From positions 1 to 24,867 of the IMG/VR virus record IMGVR_UViG_3300040758_000017: a stretch of DNA of 24,867 nt. One strand, written 5' to 3'. The translations under genes and the position numbers were made by a program. Within the stretch, counting starts at the first letter, position 1. Each line of letters opens with the position of its first letter. This DNA is from a virus. Below, in pieces: positions 1 to 24,308 of this stretch. A model generated the notes under the pieces. It did no database searches. It had not been told where the DNA came from and saw only the letters and a program-made list of their open reading frames with translations.

Positions 1-123
1 GGTACTAGATATGCCGCAGGACGCGGGCTTGGTCTAGGAGTTAATTATCTTCAACACGCTATGACGGGCGCGGCTGACAGCCTGAACGGAGGCGGCGGGA
101 ATAGCGAAACCCCAAAACAGTAG
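1..123 (+). CDS. C-terminal end of a probable virion protein (5' end outside window)
   Basis: The frame is open from the first base and ends at TAG 121-123, giving 40 visible residues. They are rich in Gly and Ala, with a GGGG run and the ending ETPKQ, which looks like a flexible linker rather than a natural globular C-terminus. The TAG is the first codon of a perfect hairpin (121-160). The same frame continues without another stop through the hairpin into the 199-750 reading frame. I infer that this and the next entry were, or still are, one longer protein. Position next to lysis-type genes suggests a virion component, but no domain identifies it. Confidence 0.6.
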   Translation, partial: GTRYAAGRGLGLGVNYLQHAMTGAADSLNGGGGNSETPKQ

Positions 124-160
124 GGAGTAACGCTAGTACAGATACTAGCGTTACTCCCTA
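121..160. repeat. perfect 18-bp inverted repeat with 4-base loop, containing a TAG stop
   Basis: The left arm TAGGGAGTAACGCTAGTA (121-138) and the right arm (143-160) are exact reverse complements around the loop CAGA. No T-run follows, so a classical intrinsic terminator is unlikely. The first three bases are the stop codon of the upstream frame. The next 12 codons stay open in the same frame. Removing 39 bases (121-159) would join the flanking frames as a Gln/Pro-rich linker, which is what an inserted element would give. Confidence 0.9.
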
Positions 161-198
161 CTCAACAACTGCAAGCACCACAGACCATTAACCCTGTT

Positions 199-750
199 TT
201 GGAGAAAGTGCTGAAGGAATATCCCGGACTTGCTAAAAACTTCAACGCGGGTAATACATCTGTAGTATTTGCCAGTGGAGATAGAGCTAAGCGCGGTCTT
301 AAGGAGCGGGGCGGGTTAGAGTTTTGGAGCCCATCCGACAAAGGTGATCCAGATTATCCATCTCCTGCCCCAGGGAAAAATGTTCTGGAAATTTACAGTG
401 ATGACTTGAAGAAAAACCCCGTTGCATTAAAGCAGGCTATTTATGGTGACTTGATGCACGGAATGTCGAGCGATCCGTATTGGAACAGTCTTCGCACTCA
501 ATTCATGCAAAACTTCACTCCACAAGAGTTGAAGAGACAAGACCAACATAAAACGTGGTGGGACGATGTGAATGGTGACAGGAACACTCGTGGAAATCCT
601 ACCTACGATGCGTACATAAGGGGTTGGATCACAAATGAAGGTAATGGTAAAGCGGGACAAAAGGAGTCCGGTAATACCATGTATTCTCCAAAACAACTTC
701 AACTCATGCAAAAAATGGAAGAGTATCTGAAAACTGGGAACACCCGCTAG
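199..750 (+). CDS. probable C-terminal domain of a virion-associated protein, lacking its own start signal
   Basis: The nominal start is TTG at 199, giving 183 residues. There is no Shine-Dalgarno sequence before it, and the frame is open back to the TAG at 121. This therefore reads as the downstream half of the preceding gene. The product is soluble and hydrophilic, with aromatic-rich stretches (WSPSDKGDPDYPSP near residue 44, GDLMHGM near 83, KTWWDDVNGD near 118). There is no membrane segment or signal peptide. I do not recognise a named family with certainty; the pattern recalls C-terminal domains of large internal or tail-associated phage proteins. The stop is TAG, followed 31 bases later by the hydrolase gene. 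It could be translated by readthrough, by re-initiation, or not at all. Confidence 0.6.
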   Translation: MEKVLKEYPGLAKNFNAGNTSVVFASGDRAKRGLKERGGLEFWSPSDKGDPDYPSPAPGKNVLEIYSDDLKKNPVALKQAIYGDLMHGMSSDPYWNSLRTQFMQNFTPQELKRQDQHKTWWDDVNGDRNTRGNPTYDAYIRGWITNEGNGKAGQKESGNTMYSPKQLQLMQKMEEYLKTGNTR

Positions 751-781: not shown

Positions 782-1189
782 TTGCTTAGACCAGACGATA
801 TGCAAAAAGCGTGCTTGTTCTTGACAGCATGGCGTGAGGGTAATGCTTATGGCGGAACACTTGCAACGGAAGCAATTATGTCCACCATAATGAACCGTGT
901 TAAGGCAGGTTGGGGGTCGTGTCTAGAGGTGATAGAAGACCTCCCTAACAAAAGTGCGACTACCCTGCGCACTGGAATGCCTAAATTGTGGGAGCCTCAA
1001 GCCAGTAGGCTCCTGCACTCTGTTGAAGGCATCTTTGACGGCTCCGCAAAGGACCTTTCTAACGGAGCACTGTATTGGTTTGACAGCAACTGTGAGGTTA
1101 CTAACGAATGGTTCAAAGATAAGATATTAGGGGACTTGAACACACATAAAAAAACGGCAGATATGAATTCACTAATGTTTTTGCGCTAA
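782..1189 (+). CDS. SleB-like cell wall hydrolase
   Basis: The product has 135 residues. The N-terminal part (TAWREGNAYGG near residues 15-25, then IMSTIMNRVKAGWG near 33-46) and the later GALYWFDS (near 95-102) match the layout of the SleB/hydrolase_2 family. These enzymes cleave peptidoglycan; Glu19 lies where the catalytic Glu is expected. There is no signal peptide, so delivery would need a holin or virion packaging. The start is TTG 782 preceded by AAAGGAG at 771-777; ATG 800 is the alternative but lacks as good a site. The membrane protein at 1221 follows closely, suggesting a lysis pair. The family assignment rests on motif pattern only. Confidence 0.6.
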   Translation: MLRPDDMQKACLFLTAWREGNAYGGTLATEAIMSTIMNRVKAGWGSCLEVIEDLPNKSATTLRTGMPKLWEPQASRLLHSVEGIFDGSAKDLSNGALYWFDSNCEVTNEWFKDKILGDLNTHKKTADMNSLMFLR

Positions 1190-4496: not shown

Positions 4497-4572
4497 GGGT
4501 CGGTAGCTCAATCGGGAGAGCAATTCCCTTGCACGGAATAGGTTGCAGGTTCGATGCCTGTCCGATCCACCA
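4497..4572 (+). tRNA. tRNA-Ala (anticodon TGC)
   Basis: A full cloverleaf of 76 bases with the 3' CCA encoded. The acceptor stem GGGTCGG pairs with CCGATCC and includes the G3-U70 pair that identifies alanine tRNAs. The anticodon stem ATTCC/GGAAT holds the loop CTTGCAC. It decodes GCN codons, mainly GCA. Confidence 0.92.
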
Positions 4573-4583
4573 AAGTATTATGT

Positions 4584-4657
4584 TCCAAGTTCGTCTAACG
4601 GCAGGACAGCGCCCTTTGAAGGCGCGTATCGAGGTTCGAATCCTTGACCTGGAACCA
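4584..4657 (+). tRNA. tRNA-Gln (anticodon TTG)
   Basis: A 74-base cloverleaf with encoded CCA. The anticodon stem GCGCC/GGCGC holds the loop CTTTGAA. The acceptor TCCAAGT pairs with ACCTGGA with one A-C mismatch at position 5. The weak U1-A72 first pair is typical of glutamine tRNAs. It decodes CAA and CAG. Confidence 0.85.
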
Positions 4658-4684
4658 GTATTAGAATATGATAAGGAGAATATC

Positions 4685-4867
4685 ATGGCAAAGGCAGTAA
4701 AGCATATCGGCTTCAAGGCCGCACAGAATAAGATCGCAAAGAAGTCTGGTGTCTCGTCTGAGAGCGCAGCAAAGATTCTCGCGTCGTCTGCTCGCAAGGC
4801 GAGCGCAAAGGCAGTGAAGGCTAACCCGCGTTTGAAGAAGGTTTCGGGCGTTAAGAAAGGAAAGTAA
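4685..4867 (+). CDS. small Ala/Lys-rich basic protein, probable DNA-binding
   Basis: The product has 60 residues, starting at ATG 4685 with AAGGAG at good spacing; the longer in-frame opening would run back into the tRNA genes and is rejected. It reads GFKAAQNKIAKKSGVS, then an Ala/Ser/Lys helix, ending in a basic NPRLKKVSGVKKGK tail. The layout (two short helices, no acidic patch) resembles small phage proteins of unknown role. The charge suggests binding of DNA or RNA. It lies five bases before thyX and is probably co-transcribed with it. Confidence 0.65.
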   Translation: MAKAVKHIGFKAAQNKIAKKSGVSSESAAKILASSARKASAKAVKANPRLKKVSGVKKGK

Positions 4868-4872
4868 CCCAA

Positions 4873-5532
4873 ATGCACATTGTAGAACCTTATGCCAAGA
4901 TCATCTCCATCTCCGGGGGAACCGGAGCGGAGTTGTTACGACTAATTGAGAAGGCAGCAAGGACATGCTATAAATCTGAAGGCAAGCAGACAGGTAACAG
5001 CTATAAGACGCTGCTTCCAAAGTTACTTGCCTCTGGTCATATGTCAGTGTTTGAACACGGAAGCATTACGGTAGAGTTCTGCGTAGACCGAGGAGTTTCA
5101 CATGAACTCGTTCGCCACCGTCTAATGTCGTACAGCCAAGAATCCACGCGCTATTGCTCATATAACCAAGAGCGGTTTGGCAAAGAGATTAAGGTTATCA
5201 AGCCTATCGGTCTAACTGATAGTCAGTTCCTTTCTTGGAGTAACACAGCGCACACCGGTGAGAGCGGGTACTTTGCTCTTCTCGATAGCGGCTGCTCTCC
5301 GTCTATTGCTCGTGATGTTCTCCCTAACTGTTTAGCAACAACTGTCGTAGTCTCAGGTAATCCTAGAGCGTGGAGACACTTGCTGTTGCAGAGAACTACC
5401 AGTGCAGTTCATCCTAAGTTCCTACAGGTATCAATCCCGTTGCTTGGGGAGTTCCAGAGAGAGATTCCTATTCTCTATGACGACATTCAAGCAGGGGCTA
5501 GTCCAGCTGAAAATCACGGGAAGGCACAATAG
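4873..5532 (+). CDS. thyX: flavin-dependent thymidylate synthase
   Basis: The product has 219 residues. The ThyX signature RHRx7S is present as R81-H82-R83 to S91, followed by R93-Y94. EHGSITVEF before it and the RAWRHLLLQRTT region near 170 also fit the family. ThyX makes dTMP from dUMP with FAD, methylenetetrahydrofolate and NADPH, acting as a homotetramer in the cytosol. Length is usual for the family. The start ATG 4873 has an AAAGGAAAG site in the end of the preceding gene. It is flanked by tRNA genes on both sides. It would give the phage dTMP independently of a host ThyA and pairs with the reductase downstream. Confidence 0.95.
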   Translation: MHIVEPYAKIISISGGTGAELLRLIEKAARTCYKSEGKQTGNSYKTLLPKLLASGHMSVFEHGSITVEFCVDRGVSHELVRHRLMSYSQESTRYCSYNQERFGKEIKVIKPIGLTDSQFLSWSNTAHTGESGYFALLDSGCSPSIARDVLPNCLATTVVVSGNPRAWRHLLLQRTTSAVHPKFLQVSIPLLGEFQREIPILYDDIQAGASPAENHGKAQ

Positions 5533-5541
5533 GACAGCGAC

Positions 5542-5552
5542 GTATTTAATAC
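5542..5552. repeat. GTATTTAATAC palindrome, copy 2 of 5
   Basis: This copy is intergenic, two bases before tRNA-Gly and 10 after thyX. No -35 box lies at a usable distance, so it is not simply a -10 element. Confidence 0.8.
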
Positions 5553-5553
5553 A

Positions 5554-5627
5554 GCGGGATTAGTTCAATGGTAGAACAATGGCCCTCCAAGCCGAAGATG
5601 CGCGTTCAAGTCACGTATCCCGCTCCA
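5554..5627 (+). tRNA. tRNA-Gly-like (anticodon TCC), degenerate
   Basis: The acceptor GCGGGAT pairs perfectly with ATCCCGC, followed by discriminator T and encoded CCA, as in glycine tRNAs. The anticodon loop is CCTCCAA, so position 33 is C instead of the near-universal T. The anticodon stem has an A-A mismatch at its top and the T-stem a C-A mismatch. It may be functional with special properties or decaying. Confidence 0.75.
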
Positions 5628-5658
5628 AAGATTTGGTAATTAGTAACACGTTAGCAAC

Positions 5659-5734
5659 GCCGATGTAGCTCAGCTGGTAGAGCTTTTGACTTGTAATCAG
5701 AGGGTCGGGGGTTCAAATCCCTCCGTCGGCTCCA
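5659..5734 (+). tRNA. tRNA-Thr (anticodon TGT)
   Basis: A 76-base cloverleaf with encoded CCA. The acceptor GCCGATG pairs with CGTCGGC with one T-G wobble. The anticodon stem TTTGA/TCAGA holds the loop CTTGTAA. The T-arm GGGGG-TTCAAAT-CCCTC is regular apart from a final G-C ordering consistent with pairing. It decodes ACA and related codons. One base separates it from tRNA-Trp. Confidence 0.92.
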
Positions 5735-5735
5735 T

Positions 5736-5811
5736 AGGGGATTAGTTCAATTGGCAGAACAGCGGCCTCCAAAGCCGTATCGTGTGGGTTCAACTCCTTC
5801 ATCCCCTGCCA
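5736..5811 (+). tRNA. tRNA-Trp (anticodon CCA)
   Basis: A 76-base cloverleaf with encoded CCA. The acceptor AGGGGAT pairs perfectly with ATCCCCT; A1-U72 and discriminator G are the tryptophan identity elements. The anticodon stem GCGGC/GCCGT holds the loop CTCCAAA. One T-T mismatch lies in the T-stem. Confidence 0.88.
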
Positions 5812-8337: not shown

Positions 8338-8584
8338 AGTCTCTATTAGGATGCCGTTTTGGTCGATCATTTGGTCGATTAAGTACGTGTGACCTTGGCT
8401 TTGGTTCAGGCTCACTTGTCAGCCGTTCAATAACGTCCAGAAGAACTCTATATCCATGAAGCGCATCGGCTTTCCGGGCGTTATGCACTGTGTCATCTAG
8501 GTCGTACATAGGACCGCTAAAAAGACGGTCAAGGTCCTTTTTAGCAACGAATACGTCATTGCTCTCAACTTCAGTAAGTTTCAC
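8336..8584 (-). CDS. hypothetical protein, last gene of the leftward block
   Basis: The product has 82 residues, mostly charged helix, with a Pro/Arg-rich C-terminal tail (EPEPKPRSHVLNRPNDRPKR). The start GTG 8584 overlaps the stop of the MazG-like gene (GTGA), with a GAGGGGG site upstream. The tail suggests a disordered or nucleic-acid-contacting end. No family is recognised. Its TAA lies in the T-run of the facing terminator. Confidence 0.6.
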   Translation of the reverse strand: MKLTEVESNDVFVAKKDLDRLFSGPMYDLDDTVHNARKADALHGYRVLLDVIERLTSEPEPKPRSHVLNRPNDRPKRHPNRD

Positions 8585-8955
8585 CGTGTATCCCCCTCAC
8601 TCTTAATAACGTTCCGGCTTGCCCGGTCCTTCAGCTTGGAAATGTTCGCTGTGGCGACTGCGGATAGCAGGTAATTAAGTTCGGTAGCCATCGCAGCCGC
8701 ATACCAGAGCACATCTCCGAGTTCTGCAAGAAGAATAACTCTGTCCTCTTCCGACATAAAGGCTCGGGATGTAATCCCCTTATTGCGCCAAAGCTTCTTG
8801 ACCTTCTCCAGGACCTCTCCAGCCTCGCCTGCAAGCCCCATAGCTGGATACCGCAACTCGTTGCCCTTGTTGGGATATTGGGCAGTGTCTTCTGCTGCCC
8901 GTTGATATTCATCGAAGCTTGTAATAGGTGGTGTTTGTATCAAAGGATTGTTCAT
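8581..8955 (-). CDS. MazG-like nucleotide pyrophosphohydrolase
   Basis: The product has 124 residues. YPAMGLAGEAGEVLEKVKKLWR (about 36-57) holds the E-x-x-E/E pair of the first metal-binding helix, and ELGDVLWYAAAMATEL (about 77-92) holds the E-x-x-D pair of the second. This is the standard MazG-like alpha-helical fold, which hydrolyses (d)NTPs to the monophosphate and pyrophosphate. Phage forms are thought to tune the nucleotide pool or lower host ppGpp. The start ATG 8955 overlaps the preceding stop (ATGA); GGAGG lies about 10 bases upstream. The DUF5664 protein at 3623 is a second, distinct member of the same broad group. Confidence 0.88.
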   Translation of the reverse strand: MNNPLIQTPPITSFDEYQRAAEDTAQYPNKGNELRYPAMGLAGEAGEVLEKVKKLWRNKGITSRAFMSEEDRVILLAELGDVLWYAAAMATELNYLLSAVATANISKLKDRASRNVIKSEGDTR

Positions 8956-9116
8956 TCCGGCACGTCCTCCACATTACAAAGTAAGTCTTCCAGGGCATCG
9001 GCAAGTGTCTCCCCACGCCCTTCCAACTCATCGTACTTCTTAGTATGGTAGGATGCTTGTAGTACATGCACCCCGTCGTCTGTTTCAAAAACACATATGG
9101 TTCCTACTCTTCGCAT
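8952..9116 (-). CDS. small hypothetical protein (54 residues)
   Basis: The ATG at 9116 lies in the end of the gene at 9104, and the stop overlaps the MazG-like start (ATGA). The product begins MRRVGTICVFETDDGVHVL, a two-strand pattern, then KYDELEGRGETLADALEDLL, an acidic helix. This resembles short beta-beta-alpha phage proteins. Overlap with both neighbours and sensible amino acid use support it over the alternative frame covering 8909-9094. Confidence 0.65.
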   Translation of the reverse strand: MRRVGTICVFETDDGVHVLQASYHTKKYDELEGRGETLADALEDLLCNVEDVPE

Positions 9117-9400
9117 CCGACCTCTTTCTTTCCTTCTTGGTAAGCTTCATCAATAATCTTCGCAAGGCGGTCTTGAAATCCTGGATCAGTATACTGTGCC
9201 TTATTGTCCAAAGTTAGCTTCAAGACCTCCACTACGGCCCTCACCTTAGAAGCTTTTTCTTCGCTTTTCGCCCCCATAAGGAGCGCACAGTTCTCGAACG
9301 AATCACATAGCTCCCGCAGGTGCGCGTACAAGGTGTCCACGTCGTCCAAAGGATCGTCCAAAGGATTTGAACTCTCAGAATCGCAATCGGTTAGTGTCAT
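9104..9400 (-). CDS. hypothetical acidic helical protein
   Basis: The product has 98 residues from ATG 9400, which has GAGGGG just upstream; the longer in-frame form from 9457 is rejected because it would overlap another short gene and lacks a binding site. It begins with an Asp/Ser-rich stretch (DCDSESSNPLDDPLDD) followed by helices with YAHLRELCDSFENCALLMG and AKIIDEAYQEGKK. The acidity and helix content suggest a protein-binding or inhibitor role, but no family is recognised. The last codons overlap the start of the 54-residue gene. Confidence 0.6.
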   Translation of the reverse strand: MTLTDCDSESSNPLDDPLDDVDTLYAHLRELCDSFENCALLMGAKSEEKASKVRAVVEVLKLTLDNKAQYTDPGFQDRLAKIIDEAYQEGKKEVGCEE

Positions 9401-9471
9401 CGCCCCTCGTTCGAGCGGACGAGGCAATATAGAAACACACACGATAGAAATACGCACGCCATGATAACCAT
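9397..9471 (-). CDS. possible 24-residue membrane peptide
   Basis: The start ATG 9471 sits two bases after the stop of the gene at 9474 (TGACAATG), and its TGA overlaps the next ATG. The product is a single hydrophobic segment rich in Val, Leu and Cys (VIMACVFLSCVFLYCLV) ending in a charged RSNEGR. It fills the only gap between tightly packed neighbours and would keep translation coupled. A weak AAGG site precedes it. It could be chance. Confidence 0.4.
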   Translation of the reverse strand: MVIMACVFLSCVFLYCLVRSNEGR

Positions 9472-9473
9472 TG

Positions 9474-9752
9474 TCAGCCTTCTTTCTTCACGTCAGCAGC
9501 CTTCGGCTGAGTACGGGTTACCTTGCACTTGCTAGCGCAAGTAGGGCAGTGCCACGTCCCCAACGGACTAGAGCTAAACGTTCCAGCTTTGTGATCCTCT
9601 TTGGAACGCATACAGGGTGTCTTAGTAGCAACTGCCCCGCAGCACGTACTCGTGTAGACGAAGACCGCTACCCCGGTGAACTTCACAGGACCCTGGCTCC
9701 GACGGCCCTTACCACCACGTTTCGATTGATTTTGGTTATTGTTATTTGCCAT
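9474..9752 (-). CDS. small zinc-ribbon-like basic protein
   Basis: The product has 92 residues. An Asn/Gln/Lys/Arg/Gly-rich N-terminus (about 1-22) is followed by seven Cys, including a CC near 37-38, C47, and C69-P-T-C72 with C76. These could bind one zinc with nearby His. A basic tail ends the protein. The start ATG 9752 has AAAGGAAGG. It is the first gene after the promoter at 9774-9802. A nucleic-acid-binding regulator is plausible, but no named family is recognised. Confidence 0.6.
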   Translation of the reverse strand: MANNNNQNQSKRGGKGRRSQGPVKFTGVAVFVYTSTCCGAVATKTPCMRSKEDHKAGTFSSSPLGTWHCPTCASKCKVTRTQPKAADVKKEG

Positions 9753-9773
9753 GTTTCCTTCCTTTCATTTACT

Positions 9774-9802
9774 ACGTTATCAGTATTTAATACACTTGTC
9801 AA
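9774..9802 (-). promoter_or_regulatory. leftward promoter with palindromic spacer
   Basis: On the minus strand TTGACA (9802-9797) is followed by a 17-base spacer and TAACGT (9779-9774), with a TGA extension before the -10. The spacer contains the GTATTWAATAC palindrome (9783-9793). It would drive the gene at 9752 and the distal part of the block. The -10 keeps only the most conserved T, A and T. Confidence 0.6.
9783..9798. repeat. GTATTTAATAC palindrome, copy 3 of 5, within a 16-base repeat
   Basis: GTATTTAATACACTTG here is identical to 11035-11050 in the recA gene. This copy lies between the -35 and -10 of the promoter, where a bound protein would block polymerase. Confidence 0.8.
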
Positions 9803-9825
9803 CGGTTATTTTCAATTTATTTCAA

Positions 9826-10029
9826 TTACTTCTTGACGATAGTTTTAGGAGAAATCGTCTCCTTCTCTTTCCAGGTGACCCAGGTGACGCACCAAGTCAC
9901 CTTCTTCCCGTCCTTACCTGTGTTCTCCGCACTTAAGAGTCCAGCTAGCCCCTTCTTCGCCAAAGAGTCAACCCAGTTTAACGCGTCTCGGCAGTCTGTA
10001 AAATGCTTTACCGTATTTGTAGTCTTCAT
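9826..10029 (-). CDS. hypothetical small protein after recA
   Basis: The product has 67 residues starting at ATG 10029, overlapping the recA stop (TAAATG). The first half is a helix (CRDALNWVDSLAKKGLAGLL); the second half has alternating strands with three Trp (KKVTWCVTWVTWKEKE) and a Lys-rich end. It could be a small alpha-beta domain. The promoter at 9774 lies just downstream and is outside this gene. No family is recognised. Confidence 0.55.
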   Translation of the reverse strand: MKTTNTVKHFTDCRDALNWVDSLAKKGLAGLLSAENTGKDGKKVTWCVTWVTWKEKETISPKTIVKK

Positions 10030-11207
10030 TTACCCTCTTTCTGAGCCGCTCGAATCCTGGCTACATCGTCCTTGATAGCCGTTTGCAGCTCTTTATTCAA
10101 TCTAACACACTCGGCTGTATTGGTCAAGCCCTGTCCCAACCTTTCTCCTTTAAAATCATACCATGCCCCAGATTGGTGGATAGCGCCCAGAGAGACAGCG
10201 TAGTTGACAAAGTCCCCGAAGGTGTCAATGCCAGATTCATATAGAAGGTTTACCAAGGTTTCCCGCATCGGACAGCCACATTTGTTCTTAATGGCTTTAA
10301 TTTTCAGAACATGGCCGATTGGCTGCTCCTTGGGTCCGATAACGTCTTTACGCCGAACATCCAGACGGACAGATGCATAGAATTTTAAAGCGACTCCGCC
10401 AGTGGTTGTCTCGGGACTGCCGTACATTACGGCAATTTTCATGCGGATTTGATTGATAAACAGGACAGTTACTCCACGCATAGCAGCTTTCCCTACTAGC
10501 TTCCTGCATGCCTGAGACATTAGCCGCGCCTGAAGGCCCATGTTAGCCTGCCCCATCTCCCCGTCCAACTCAGCGCGTGGCGTAAGAGCTGCTACTGAAT
10601 CCACTACAATCAGACTCACCGCAGAGCTATCAATAAGCGCCTCTACTATTTCCAGGGCCTCTTCCCCACTACTAGGTTGTGAGATTAACAACTCGTCCAC
10701 GTTGACGCCTAATTTAGCAGCATAGTTCACATCAATTGCATGTTCTGCATCAACAATCGCACACAAGTTCTCTGTGTTCTTCTGTTCCATAGCAATAAGG
10801 TGCAACGCGAGTGTAGTCTTACCACTAGACTCAGGTCCCAGCACCTCGATGATCCGTCCCCGTGGGATGCCTCCGCAGCCGAGCACATTATAATCTAGAG
10901 TGGGCAGTTCCGTGGATATACTTGGCACGTCAATACCGACCCTATCTCCTAGTCGGACAATAGATAAAGTAGTATCAAATTGCTTGTTTAGTGCTTTCTC
11001 GACGGCCTTTAACGCCGCAAACTTGTCCTCTTTGGTATTTAATACACTTGAATTCTTCGATTCTTTCTCTTTTACCACTTTAGAACTAACAGTTTCAATA
11101 GAACTGTTAGAAACAGAAACGCCCCCAACGCTCATACCTGCGCTGGGGGAAGTTCCTACATTCGTTGATACCATTGCTGCCAAATCGGCAAGCGCATTCT
11201 TTGCCAC
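10026..11207 (-). CDS. recA: RecA recombinase
   Basis: The product has 393 residues. From residue about 68 it aligns by eye with bacterial RecA throughout: Walker A GPESSGKT (124-131), DAEHA, the VVDSVAALTPRAE region, FINQIRMKI, and ETTTGG.ALKFYASVRLD. It forms ATP-dependent filaments on single-stranded DNA and drives strand exchange. Before this lies a Ser/Val-rich extension of about 60 residues not found in the Escherichia coli protein. The start GTG 11207 has AGGAG at good spacing. Phages more often carry UvsX-like forms; this is closer to cellular RecA. A 9-bp inverted repeat lies in the extension (11086-11110). Confidence 0.95.
   Translation of the reverse strand: MAKNALADLAAMVSTNVGTSPSAGMSVGGVSVSNSSIETVSSKVVKEKESKNSSVLNTKEDKFAALKAVEKALNKQFDTTLSIVRLGDRVGIDVPSISTELPTLDYNVLGCGGIPRGRIIEVLGPESSGKTTLALHLIAMEQKNTENLCAIVDAEHAIDVNYAAKLGVNVDELLISQPSSGEEALEIVEALIDSSAVSLIVVDSVAALTPRAELDGEMGQANMGLQARLMSQACRKLVGKAAMRGVTVLFINQIRMKIAVMYGSPETTTGGVALKFYASVRLDVRRKDVIGPKEQPIGHVLKIKAIKNKCGCPMRETLVNLLYESGIDTFGDFVNYAVSLGAIHQSGAWYDFKGERLGQGLTNTAECVRLNKELQTAIKDDVARIRAAQKEGK
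11035..11050. repeat. GTATTTAATAC palindrome, copy 4 of 5
   Basis: This copy lies in the recA N-terminal extension, where it encodes VLNT on the minus strand. The 16 bases are identical to 9783-9798. Confidence 0.8.
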
Positions 11208-12694: not shown

Positions 12695-13224
12695 GCCTCC
12701 TCATAAAAGTACCCAAAGTCAATAATTTTCAAATCCCCTGATAGTGACACCCCGATGTTCGAAGAATGAAGGTCAGTACAGCCCCGCGCAGCCCATGTCA
12801 ACTCAACTATGTCATTTACTAAGTGGACTAGCATGTCTTTTGCCATAGACACGTCAGAATTTCTCAGTTTTACACACTGCTCAGTAGCAATTACCCCAGT
12901 CTTCCGGTTGAAGTAGTAAACGTCTGGAACAAACTGCTTGAGCATCCGATACTTACGCTTGCATCGGAGAATTTTAGAGATAGCCCGGTGCTCCGAAATC
13001 ATATGGTAGACTTCATCTCGGTAAGTATGGTACTCCGACTTGTCTACCCCACACATATAGTTAGGAAACTTAATTACCACTGACACACCGACTACTTTGT
13101 AAGTAGACCTGTACAACCCAGTTCCGAGTTTCATAAGTTTCATTCCACACTTCTCCTTAAACTCTTTAGGAGACTTCGGGTGATGGTCTTTGAGCACTTG
13201 GGCTACCGTTACGGAATTAATCAT
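12691..13224 (-). CDS. minimal protein-kinase-fold protein
   Basis: The product has 177 residues. It has a kinase-like order of motifs: glycine loop LGTGLYRSTYKV (33-44), VVIK with Lys52, a helix with Glu78, a hinge-like ATEQ near 113, catalytic loop DLHSSN (Asp151, Asn156), and DFG at 169-171. The DLH--N form is closer to RIO/ABC1 and aminoglycoside kinase types than to eukaryotic Ser/Thr kinases. The protein ends six residues after DFG, so the activation segment and C-lobe are missing. It may be an ATP-binding kinase of small substrates, or a pseudo-kinase. The start ATG 13224 overlaps the primase-helicase stop (TGATG). Confidence 0.65.
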   Translation of the reverse strand: MINSVTVAQVLKDHHPKSPKEFKEKCGMKLMKLGTGLYRSTYKVVGVSVVIKFPNYMCGVDKSEYHTYRDEVYHMISEHRAISKILRCKRKYRMLKQFVPDVYYFNRKTGVIATEQCVKLRNSDVSMAKDMLVHLVNDIVELTWAARGCTDLHSSNIGVSLSGDLKIIDFGYFYEEA

Positions 13225-15284
13225 CAGATTATAATGTCTCCTTCATCCGGTGTGACTAGAGTAGCTGGAGTAGCTGGAGTAGCTGGAGCAGTGGCTACCT
13301 TAAGAGCATCCAAAGATAAGTTAGCTGCTGTTAGTTGCTTCGCATAACCTACATTTGGGTTAGCCTTCGCGTTCATAGCTGCAATTTTCCCATCTGTAAG
13401 CTTGTGAACAGTACTAGTCGCTCCATCAAAGTAAAGAGTTGTTGTTCCTCCTGCGCTGTACCTAGAAAGACTCGCCGACACCAACATTTCGGGTCCAAAT
13501 GTTCCTTCAGTTTGGATAAAAGCGCCTTGAGCGAATGCATCTTTTGTCACCTCTCCTATCCTAATACGGTTGATAACAAGCTGTAAGTCACAATCTTTGG
13601 AAACCTGAGAAGACCCATCTACGCTGTCAGATGTTGCCAGCTTCCCCTCCCCAATGCTGTGTGGCTGCAAGATAATTACCATCTGCACACCGTAGTCCTT
13701 GCCGATCTTCGTAAGCCGTTTACTAATCTCGGACAAATGCTGAGTCCGATTCCTATTCTTAATAGTATTATCGCACAAAAGCTGTAGATTGTCAAGCATA
13801 ATCCACTTAACACCGTAGCGCCGAATAATGTCGATAATCAGCTTGTAAAGGTCATCCTCGGTTTGGTATGCAGGATAGCAGAATAGTAAATCCCCTTCTC
13901 GGTTTGCAGCCAACTCCTTAACTACGGGTATCGCATCTTTGAATTGCTGGGTAAGTTCGGCTGCATCCTCCGGAGCCTTAGGAAGATTATCCGCAATCCC
14001 TGCCTTGTGACATACCCACTTTCGAGCAAGCTTTGCTCGTGTCATTTCCAAGCATATGATAACACCACTTTCATTATACTCATTGACCATATATTCGAGA
14101 AGGTTAAGTCCAAGCGTGGACTTGCCCTGCTTGCCCGGCCCGAGTATTTGTATGCAATCACCCTCGTCAAATTGTGCAATATCCTGAATAGGTGGCCAAA
14201 TATACTTTTGGCCTGCACCTTTCCCATCAAGTTCTTCTGTAAACTCATCAATAGCGTCACAAGTATTAGCTACTCCGTTCACATCAAAAAGCTGTGCAGA
14301 TTGCTTTAATGCCTCAAATGCTTCAAGCGTTCCTCCGCCAGATACGAACCACTCGTTAATATCCTTACCTGCTCGAACCTCACCCTTCTCAGTAGTTACT
14401 TCAAATTGTGGCAGAATAAGCTTGTAGCATTTGTCAATTCCGATCCGGCAGGCCAGCTCCTGAGCAGCTTTCTGCCCTACCTTGTCAAGGTCATAACAAA
14501 TGTATACCTTGTCCAGTCCTAGGGCGTCGATCTGTGTCAGCCATTCGGCCTTCTTAATGTTAGCTCCTGGCACCGCGACGGCATTGGGGATTCCCTTATC
14601 GAGCGCTGCAATGCAGTCCAACTCCCCCTCGAAGAAGATAACTTCCTTTAGCCCATCCTTAAGAACTTCGCCATTGTAAAGAGCAGCATCGTACCCAGTC
14701 GGGCAGCTAAAATCCTTTGGAACTTTTTTCAAGTCATTCGGGTCAGGGAGCGTCCGGTACTTCGCCCAAACACAAGTCCCGTTAATGAGATAAGGAATTA
14801 CCAACGCCCTGACTTCTCCACCAACGTTTCTGAAGTAGTGCTTGGCCTTCATTCCGAGCTTCTGTTGGATAATGGTCTCTTTAGACAGTCCCCGGATGTT
14901 AACTAGATAATCTAAGGCATCGTCGTCGGCCATTAAGGCACCGTGGCACGCGTCAGCATCCGGGAGTGGGTCCATCTTCCGTTCCGACTTCCCCCACTCG
15001 CCCTGGGACGATACACCGGGCGTAACGAGCCCTAGATGTTGCCTAAGAGAGTACAGGTTGCCTGACTTGGAGCACCGCATACAGAGGAACAGACCGTCTC
15101 TCTGCTTCTGCTCAGACTGGGACCCGTGAATTTCCATACAGCAATGGTCTTCTTTGCCGCAATACGGGCAGTTTGCTAGAATAATGTTTGGGAGATTCCC
15201 CAGTTTAAACTTCCATCCCTGTGTTTGTACAAGTTGTAGTGCGGCTGAGCCGCTGAAAGATTCCGGTAACGTTAGTGAATTCAT
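13224..15284 (-). CDS. bifunctional primase-helicase
   Basis: The product has 686 residues from ATG 15284, with AAGGA five bases upstream; an earlier ATG at 15302 lacks a binding site. Domain order: zinc ribbon (C39-P-Y-C42, C68-x-x-C71), TOPRIM primase core (FFEGELD with Glu219, and YDLD with Asp265 and Asp267), then a DnaB/T7 gp4-type helicase with Walker A GPGKQGKST (382-390), the IMLDN Walker B (near 495-499) and ILQPHS (near 538). It unwinds the fork and makes primers. Near the C-terminus a run of Ala-Thr-Pro repeats comes from 9-base repeats (about 13262-13290). TGATG links it to the kinase-fold gene. Confidence 0.93.
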   Translation of the reverse strand: MNSLTLPESFSGSAALQLVQTQGWKFKLGNLPNIILANCPYCGKEDHCCMEIHGSQSEQKQRDGLFLCMRCSKSGNLYSLRQHLGLVTPGVSSQGEWGKSERKMDPLPDADACHGALMADDDALDYLVNIRGLSKETIIQQKLGMKAKHYFRNVGGEVRALVIPYLINGTCVWAKYRTLPDPNDLKKVPKDFSCPTGYDAALYNGEVLKDGLKEVIFFEGELDCIAALDKGIPNAVAVPGANIKKAEWLTQIDALGLDKVYICYDLDKVGQKAAQELACRIGIDKCYKLILPQFEVTTEKGEVRAGKDINEWFVSGGGTLEAFEALKQSAQLFDVNGVANTCDAIDEFTEELDGKGAGQKYIWPPIQDIAQFDEGDCIQILGPGKQGKSTLGLNLLEYMVNEYNESGVIICLEMTRAKLARKWVCHKAGIADNLPKAPEDAAELTQQFKDAIPVVKELAANREGDLLFCYPAYQTEDDLYKLIIDIIRRYGVKWIMLDNLQLLCDNTIKNRNRTQHLSEISKRLTKIGKDYGVQMVIILQPHSIGEGKLATSDSVDGSSQVSKDCDLQLVINRIRIGEVTKDAFAQGAFIQTEGTFGPEMLVSASLSRYSAGGTTTLYFDGATSTVHKLTDGKIAAMNAKANPNVGYAKQLTAANLSLDALKVATAPATPATPATLVTPDEGDIII

Positions 15285-15305
15285 CGTTTCCTTATTATAC
15301 AACAG

Positions 15306-22539: not shown

Positions 22540-22974
22540 CTACTTAATGCAAACCGTCTTTCCGTGCTGAATCAGAATGTCGAAATTTGAGAGAAAATCC
22601 TTGCCAAGAATCCCCTGAATCTTGCGACCATTGACACTGAAACCATCCAAGGGCATAACGGCGATGCTCTGACGGGTCAAAGTGGATTTTCCAACAGTGA
22701 TTGAATTCACCATCGTCATGTACCCGGAGACGTGCCCCTTGGTTCCCAACACTGAAACATTCTCGATCTCAGGAGTTCCATGAGATATTTCCGGATCGAG
22801 CGTGGTGATCTGAGCACCTGTGTCGAGCACGAAATTGTGCGGTGAGTCGCCATTGATTGCAACGGGGATAGTCAGAAAGCGGTCGATAGTCTTCAGCGGG
22901 ACAGCGGTCATGCCAGCAGGGCACTCAGCGGCGGCGATAGTAGCGAACAGAAAGCAAAGCGCAAAGAGTTTCAT
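22540..22974 (-). CDS. exported retropepsin-like aspartyl protease
   Basis: The product has 144 residues. The first 17 (MKLFALCFLFATIAAAE) form a Sec signal peptide. The mature part has the single-domain aspartyl protease layout: FVLDTGAQITTL with catalytic Asp51-Thr-Gly, the flexible GTKGHVSGYM region, and the IQGILGKDFLSNFDILI end that supports the active site. Such domains dimerise to form one active site. Many free-living bacteria encode exported relatives; in a phage it is unusual. Mature Cys18 and Cys142 could pair. The start ATG 22974 overlaps the preceding stop (ATGA), so expression belongs to the leftward block. Confidence 0.8.
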   Translation of the reverse strand: MKLFALCFLFATIAAAECPAGMTAVPLKTIDRFLTIPVAINGDSPHNFVLDTGAQITTLDPEISHGTPEIENVSVLGTKGHVSGYMTMVNSITVGKSTLTRQSIAVMPLDGFSVNGRKIQGILGKDFLSNFDILIQHGKTVCIK

Positions 22975-24194: not shown

Positions 24195-24222
24195 TTTCTT
24201 AGAACTTTCTTAGAACTTTCTT
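24195..24222. repeat. 11-base tandem repeat between tRNA-Leu and the recombinase
   Basis: AGAACTTTCTT occurs at 24201-24211 and 24212-24222, preceded by a partial unit TTTCTT. The array touches the tRNA CCA end. Confidence 0.8.
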
Positions 24223-24308
24223 GGTGCGGGCGGAGGGATTCGAACCCCCATGCCCCTAAGGGCCGGGGCTTTTAAGGCCCCTGTGTCTGCCAGTTCCACC
24301 ACCCCCGC
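24222..24308 (-). tRNA. tRNA-Leu (anticodon TAA)
   Basis: An 87-base class II cloverleaf with encoded CCA. The anticodon stem GGGGC/GCCCC holds the loop CTTAAAA. A long variable arm (GGCCCTTAGGGGC region) and the TGGTGGAACTGGCAGACAC D-arm are typical of leucine tRNAs. The acceptor has one G-G mismatch. It decodes TTA and TTG. Confidence 0.9.

Follow-up and report, generated by a model that had tools for sequence, protein, structure and literature searches.

The perfect hairpin and in-frame TAG near the beginning of the window (the whole 24,867-nucleotide stretch of phage DNA analysed here) are probably a recoding junction at which a C-terminal domain cassette would be added by frameshifting; in this genome the cassette has come to lie out of the -1 register. 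The cassette would be located at the end of, or beside, virion-type genes of tailed phages. In the relatives most ribosomes would stop at the TAG and release the plain protein, and some would slip -1 on a heptamer, aided by a stem-loop directly 3′, thereby placing a domain of ~190 amino acids on a minority of copies. In the window the distance between junction and domain would have been altered by a non-multiple of three, perhaps as the stem-loop became a long perfect hairpin, and a -1 slip would then end at TAA 189-191. The features of the site and its neighbour are:

1-120, plus strand: open frame, the 3′ end of an upstream ORF (..LNGGGGNSETPKQ); by gene order, probably the end of the counterpart of Tunturiibacter phage Tunturi_3 gp25 (1070 aa)
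111-117, plus strand: slippery heptamer C CCA AAA, in frame and separated from TAG 121 by a single codon
111-191, plus strand: -1 frame after slippage, PKTVGSNASTDTSVTPYSTTASTTDH, with stop TAA 189-191
118-120, plus strand: intercodon CAG, separating the heptamer from the stop; in relatives it is CAG or CGG
119-162, plus strand: perfect stem-loop, arms 119-138 and 143-162, loop 139-142, at the site of the presumed stimulatory stem-loop in relatives
121-123, plus strand: TAG, the frame 0 stop, with GG next as in related junctions
172-750, plus strand: conserved ~190-aa phage domain of unassigned function, in frame 0 in the window (alignment A2)
782-1189, plus strand: homologue of Tunturi_3 gp26 (annotated endolysin; 44% identity, E 8e-32); gp26 follows gp25

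An earlier note on this DNA had described the frame from base 1 as stopping at TAG 121 and otherwise open to 750, and this is what we find: frame 0 is open from 1 to 120 and again from 124 to 747, where it reaches the stop TAG 748-750. It was also right that the second half has only a TTG start (position 199, the sole one listed), with no Shine-Dalgarno sequence. The inverted repeat around the stop is real and has the 4-nt loop reported, although its arms are 20 bp long instead of 18, with 100% complementarity. By chance, random sequence of 24.9 kb should contain a perfect 20-bp repeat about 2e-8 times per loop length. The 54-nt RNA that starts at base 120 folds with -33.8 kcal/mol (z = -9.3), a stability not reached in any of 300 shuffles. 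Searches for a known RNA family returned sub-threshold matches only, one of them a weak lentiviral frameshift element. We rejected an intrinsic terminator, since no T run stands 3′ of the hairpin, and reassignment of TAG, since the gene's own terminal stop is TAG 748-750. A division into two genes, the second starting near 199, was rejected as well, there being no Shine-Dalgarno sequence here and no usable start in any -1 relative; the counter-point is that many relatives carry the domain as a proper stand-alone gene.

The 40 codons of 1-120 gave no significant match to Tunturi_3 gp25, and no close relatives of the neighbouring gene 782-1189 were found in IMG/VR. Together with the gp26 homologue, a primase/helicase at 13224-15302 with 54% identity to its Tunturi_3 counterpart indicates that the window phage is related to acidobacterial phages. 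Elsewhere in the window, the minus strand of 22540-22974 encodes a secreted-looking, retropepsin-like aspartyl protease (PF13650, E 2.4e-13; gag-asp PF13975, 5e-10) with a signal-peptide-like N terminus, and six tRNA genes (Ala, Gln, Gly, Thr, Trp, Leu) lie at 4497-5811 and 24222-24308.

What had been missed is the -1 frame that is open from 111 to 188 and the heptamer C CCA AAA at 111-117. Its distance from the stop is that of A AAC CCT in three related loci (L005, L006 and L012), against a background of 0.33% per codon for in-frame X XXY YYZ across the loci at hand. The -1 frame encodes a Ser/Thr-rich linker with VGS at its start; VGS is common to L005, L006 and L012, and PKTVGS to a further locus, L085. 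TAA 189-191 closes this frame short of the domain, which runs in frame 0, and this counts against the explanation we favour, as does the fact that only 40 codons of the upstream protein lie in the window. Of the usual elements of -1 programmed frameshifting, the window has the heptamer and the downstream stem-loop and lacks downstream coding in the -1 frame, and L005, L006 and L012 have all three. Work in E. coli places C_CC.A_AA.A among the efficient heptamers; given a strong stimulator, 61 of 64 heptamers function there, and A_AA.C_CC.U is not one of the three that fail (PMC4066793).

Conservation of the downstream domain starts near base 172, with 48-73% identity to the window over ~190 amino acids (alignment A2, 15 sequences). 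Its relatives comprise 13 IMG/VR loci found with the query 199-747, one more found by profile and one on a MAG contig. The AlphaFold2 model is mostly helical (mean pLDDT 88). No family was found in Pfam, PHROG or NCBIfam, and the PDB gave neither a sequence relative nor a significant fold match (best E 0.38); the fold search did match one uncultured phage protein (E 3e-6). A distant, unannotated copy of the domain is present in GenBank phage MW202753.1 at 24904-25395 (L032, 4001-4492), with a peptidase M15 gene on one side and a hypothetical gene on the other.

The relatives carry this domain in three ways. In L003, L004, L007-L009, L011, L013-L015 and L029 it is a stand-alone gene with an ATG start, often with a Shine-Dalgarno-like stretch 5′ of it, among structural-looking neighbours. 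In L010 it forms the C-terminal end of a 448-aa ORF, an in-frame fusion. L005, L006 and L012 lack a usable start codon and ribosome binding site for it; the upstream ORFs of 503, 496 and 703 codons, respectively, terminate in CCAAACCCTCRGTAG, and it is from there that the -1 frame runs open through the domain. The same domain is therefore found with different proteins and in different frames. The junction of L005, L006 and L012 reads A AAC CCT CRG TAG GG in the 0 frame and KPSVGS in the -1 frame. The serine codon of VGS is AGC in two of them and TCA in the third, a difference pointing to selection for the -1 reading; overall, VGS is kept with AGC, TCA and AGT. Directly 3′ of the TAG in L005, L006 and L012 lie stem-loops whose stem sequences differ from each other (z-scores -1.9, -2.6 and -2.7, respectively; -2.4 for L085). 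Because L005 and L006 are at one gene location, the three count as two independent settings or more, with the window as a third. Only these three relatives and the window have the junction in front of the ~190-aa domain, a further point against the favoured explanation. Behind the TAG the window is open in frame 0, and no relative has a 0-frame arrangement of this kind behind a TAG.

Loci that carry the L005 upstream gene with no domain cassette were found in L070 and L074, whose flanks match L005 at 81-96%. The extra stretch in L005 is 629 nt, or -1 modulo 3, so that a slipped ribosome returns to the original stop codon. In L005 the cassette (4915-5551) lies between two copies of the 8-nt repeat GGAGCACA, of which L070 and L074 have one copy. 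The repeats are compatible with insertion as well as deletion and do not tell the direction.

We surveyed IMG/VR for the junction 15-mer AAACCCTCRGTAGGG, scoring a match as a frameshift arrangement when it closes a 0-frame ORF of 100 codons or more and starts a -1 ORF of 60 codons or more. This arrangement was seen in 20 of the 37 matches (17 distinct). A control 15-mer, AAACCCTCYGTAGGG, with CYG in place of CRG, also gave 37 matches and not one such arrangement (0/37), indicating that the intercodon matters and that composition does not account for the enrichment. The window-type signal CCCAAAACNGTAGGG gave 83 matches, of which one was convincing, namely L085, with PKTVGS in the -1 frame and a stem-loop.

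The -1 parts behind the 15-mer differ: they include the ~190-aa domain, an SLT transglycosylase, a domain of ~150 aa, proteins of ~88 aa and the -1 part of L057. In L045 the transglycosylase (PF01464, E 2.8e-27) follows an ORF of 616 codons, in its -1 frame:

8521-8880, minus strand (L045): -1 frame SLT part
8871-10718, minus strand (L045): upstream ORF, joined by the 15-mer junction

The ~150-aa domain, which has no family match, is joined by the 15-mer junction to different upstream proteins (L037, L039, L042, L048 and L050). The ~88-aa -1 ORFs start with KPSVGP behind ORFs of 139-269 codons (L034, L044, L047, L058, L061, L063, L066 and L069), and by this layout they look like tail-assembly chaperone partners. 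The members scanned had no family match, and L047 and L063 had none among GenBank phages. In several of this group the region 3′ of the TAG folds no better than shuffles, which also counts against the favoured explanation. Neither the other -1 ORFs nor the L045 upstream protein had a GenBank phage match.

The open-access literature yielded no description of an A AAC CCT CRG TAG GG junction, nor of one nearly constant 15-nt junction before unrelated domains. The closest parallel is provided by the Ig-like domains of phages, which are added to capsid or tail proteins in frame or by -1 or +1 frameshifting, as in T3 gene 10, Lactobacillus phage A2 and Listeria phages (PMC5009743). In both systems different phage proteins bear a C-terminal domain, joined in frame or via a frameshift, with two products per gene. 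The window domain differs in not being Ig-like by family search or by fold (the AlphaFold2 model is mostly helical, not an Ig-like beta-sandwich) and is thus not a member; moreover, a nearly constant 15-nt junction recurs here before unrelated domains. A cassette attached by frameshifting would work in the same way as an attached Ig-like domain, with a different fold. With the -1 frameshift signals of bacterial IS elements and dnaX, L005, L006, L012 and others share the heptamer, short spacer, stem-loop and -1 ORF, whereas in the window the domain is in frame 0, and a single intercodon separates the heptamer from the stop, which sits at the stem-loop's foot. Lambda G/GT resembles 9 of the 20 matches, which combine a 0-frame ORF of 139-269 codons with a -1 ORF of ~85-90 codons; in contrast, those -1 ORFs have no family match, and the window domain is unrelated. 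As in the bypass of T4 gene 60, a UAG stands directly after a possible take-off codon and a hairpin is present there, but the landing codon is not identical and the site is homologous to frameshift junctions.

The junction, homologues, reading frames, stem-loops and presence or absence of the cassette can be read from the DNA itself, and from these we infer that the junction sites shift in vivo. The gene neighbourhood suggests that the fusion protein would be part of the virion. The fusion of the window phage would now be lost, rare or made another way. The earlier note had proposed a recoded extension of a virion-type protein; recoding is supported, and the relatives point to -1 frameshifting in place of the TAG readthrough it had in mind. 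The CAG-TAG-GGA that it compared to readthrough contexts is no such context in this setting: CAG-TAG-GG is the constant core of the frameshift junction in the -1 relatives.

Several other explanations of the window site deserve weight. The domain might truly have moved to frame 0, with TAG 121 being read past the strong hairpin by a near-cognate or glutamine tRNA; a phage tRNA-Gln(TTG) is indeed present, at 4584-4657, as had been noted. Readthrough is conceivable in the window genome alone, since the domain lies here in frame 0 instead of frame -1. From 124 to 747 frame 0 is open over an intact domain that aligns along its full length, and a switch from frameshifting to readthrough with a zero-frame downstream ORF has a retroviral precedent in Moloney murine leukaemia virus, which uses readthrough where other retroviruses frameshift (PMC5009743). 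Against this, the frame 0 translation of 124-159 (GVTLVQILALLP) is unlike the linkers of relatives, whereas the -1 reading of that stretch is rich in Ser/Thr and opens with VGS; TAG GG is accounted for by the frameshift junction. Known stimulators of readthrough differ from a hairpin that starts at the stop codon itself, and we consider this reading improbable. Slightly better placed, though still unlikely, is a small length error in the contig between 128 and ~172, in which case the real phage would make an L005-like -1 fusion. Long hairpins are hard to copy and sequence, the rest of the -1 junction is complete and the VGS linker is natural in the -1 frame. No near-identical contig was available among the matches for comparison, however, and the other long genes of the contig are intact, so an assembly indel falling exactly at the junction is not likely a priori. 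It is because the linker reads naturally in the -1 frame, and GVTLVQILALLP does not in frame 0, that we tentatively rank a real length change above contig error and above readthrough or bypass.

Two further readings take the hairpin itself as their starting point. In a bypass of the T4 gene 60 type, peptidyl-tRNA-Gln would leave CAG 118-120, skip the UAG and the hairpin and resume at CAA 163, in frame 42 nt on. The UAG directly 3′ of the take-off codon, the hairpin at the take-off site, the codon for the same tRNA at the hairpin foot and the frame-keeping length all fit, and gene 60 itself has GGA-UAG-gap-GGA and a take-off stem-loop (PMC5009743). Yet CAG 118-120 and CAA 163-165 are synonymous and not identical, and the homologous junctions share TAGGGAG in a frameshift layout, making bypass very unlikely. 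The mobile palindrome put forward in the earlier note, which would have inserted in the gene, has perfect symmetry and a 4-nt loop in its favour. It fares worst: no other hairpin copy of the arm exists in the window or in IMG/VR, TAGGGAG, the outer end of the window arm, is common to relatives that lack the long hairpin, and these form shorter stem-loops of their own in that position. We give it hardly any credence. We regard as doubtful, too, the compound proposal that A AAC CCT CRG TAG GG with its stem-loop (NPQ* / KPSVG) is a portable frameshift module of unrelated phage genes and that the window lineage switched to frame 0 with UAG readthrough or bypass behind the 20-bp hairpin.

Returning to a frameshift junction that has changed register, the junction provides a signature for locating frameshift-attached domains directly in the sequence of phage genomes. 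It reaches the mostly helical domain, which is new, as well as a lytic transglycosylase; gene callers would list both as separate genes lacking a start. If the same junction has been passed between genes, then the moving unit would be a domain together with its own recoding signal, and the window offers a natural test of a frameshift junction that lost its frame.
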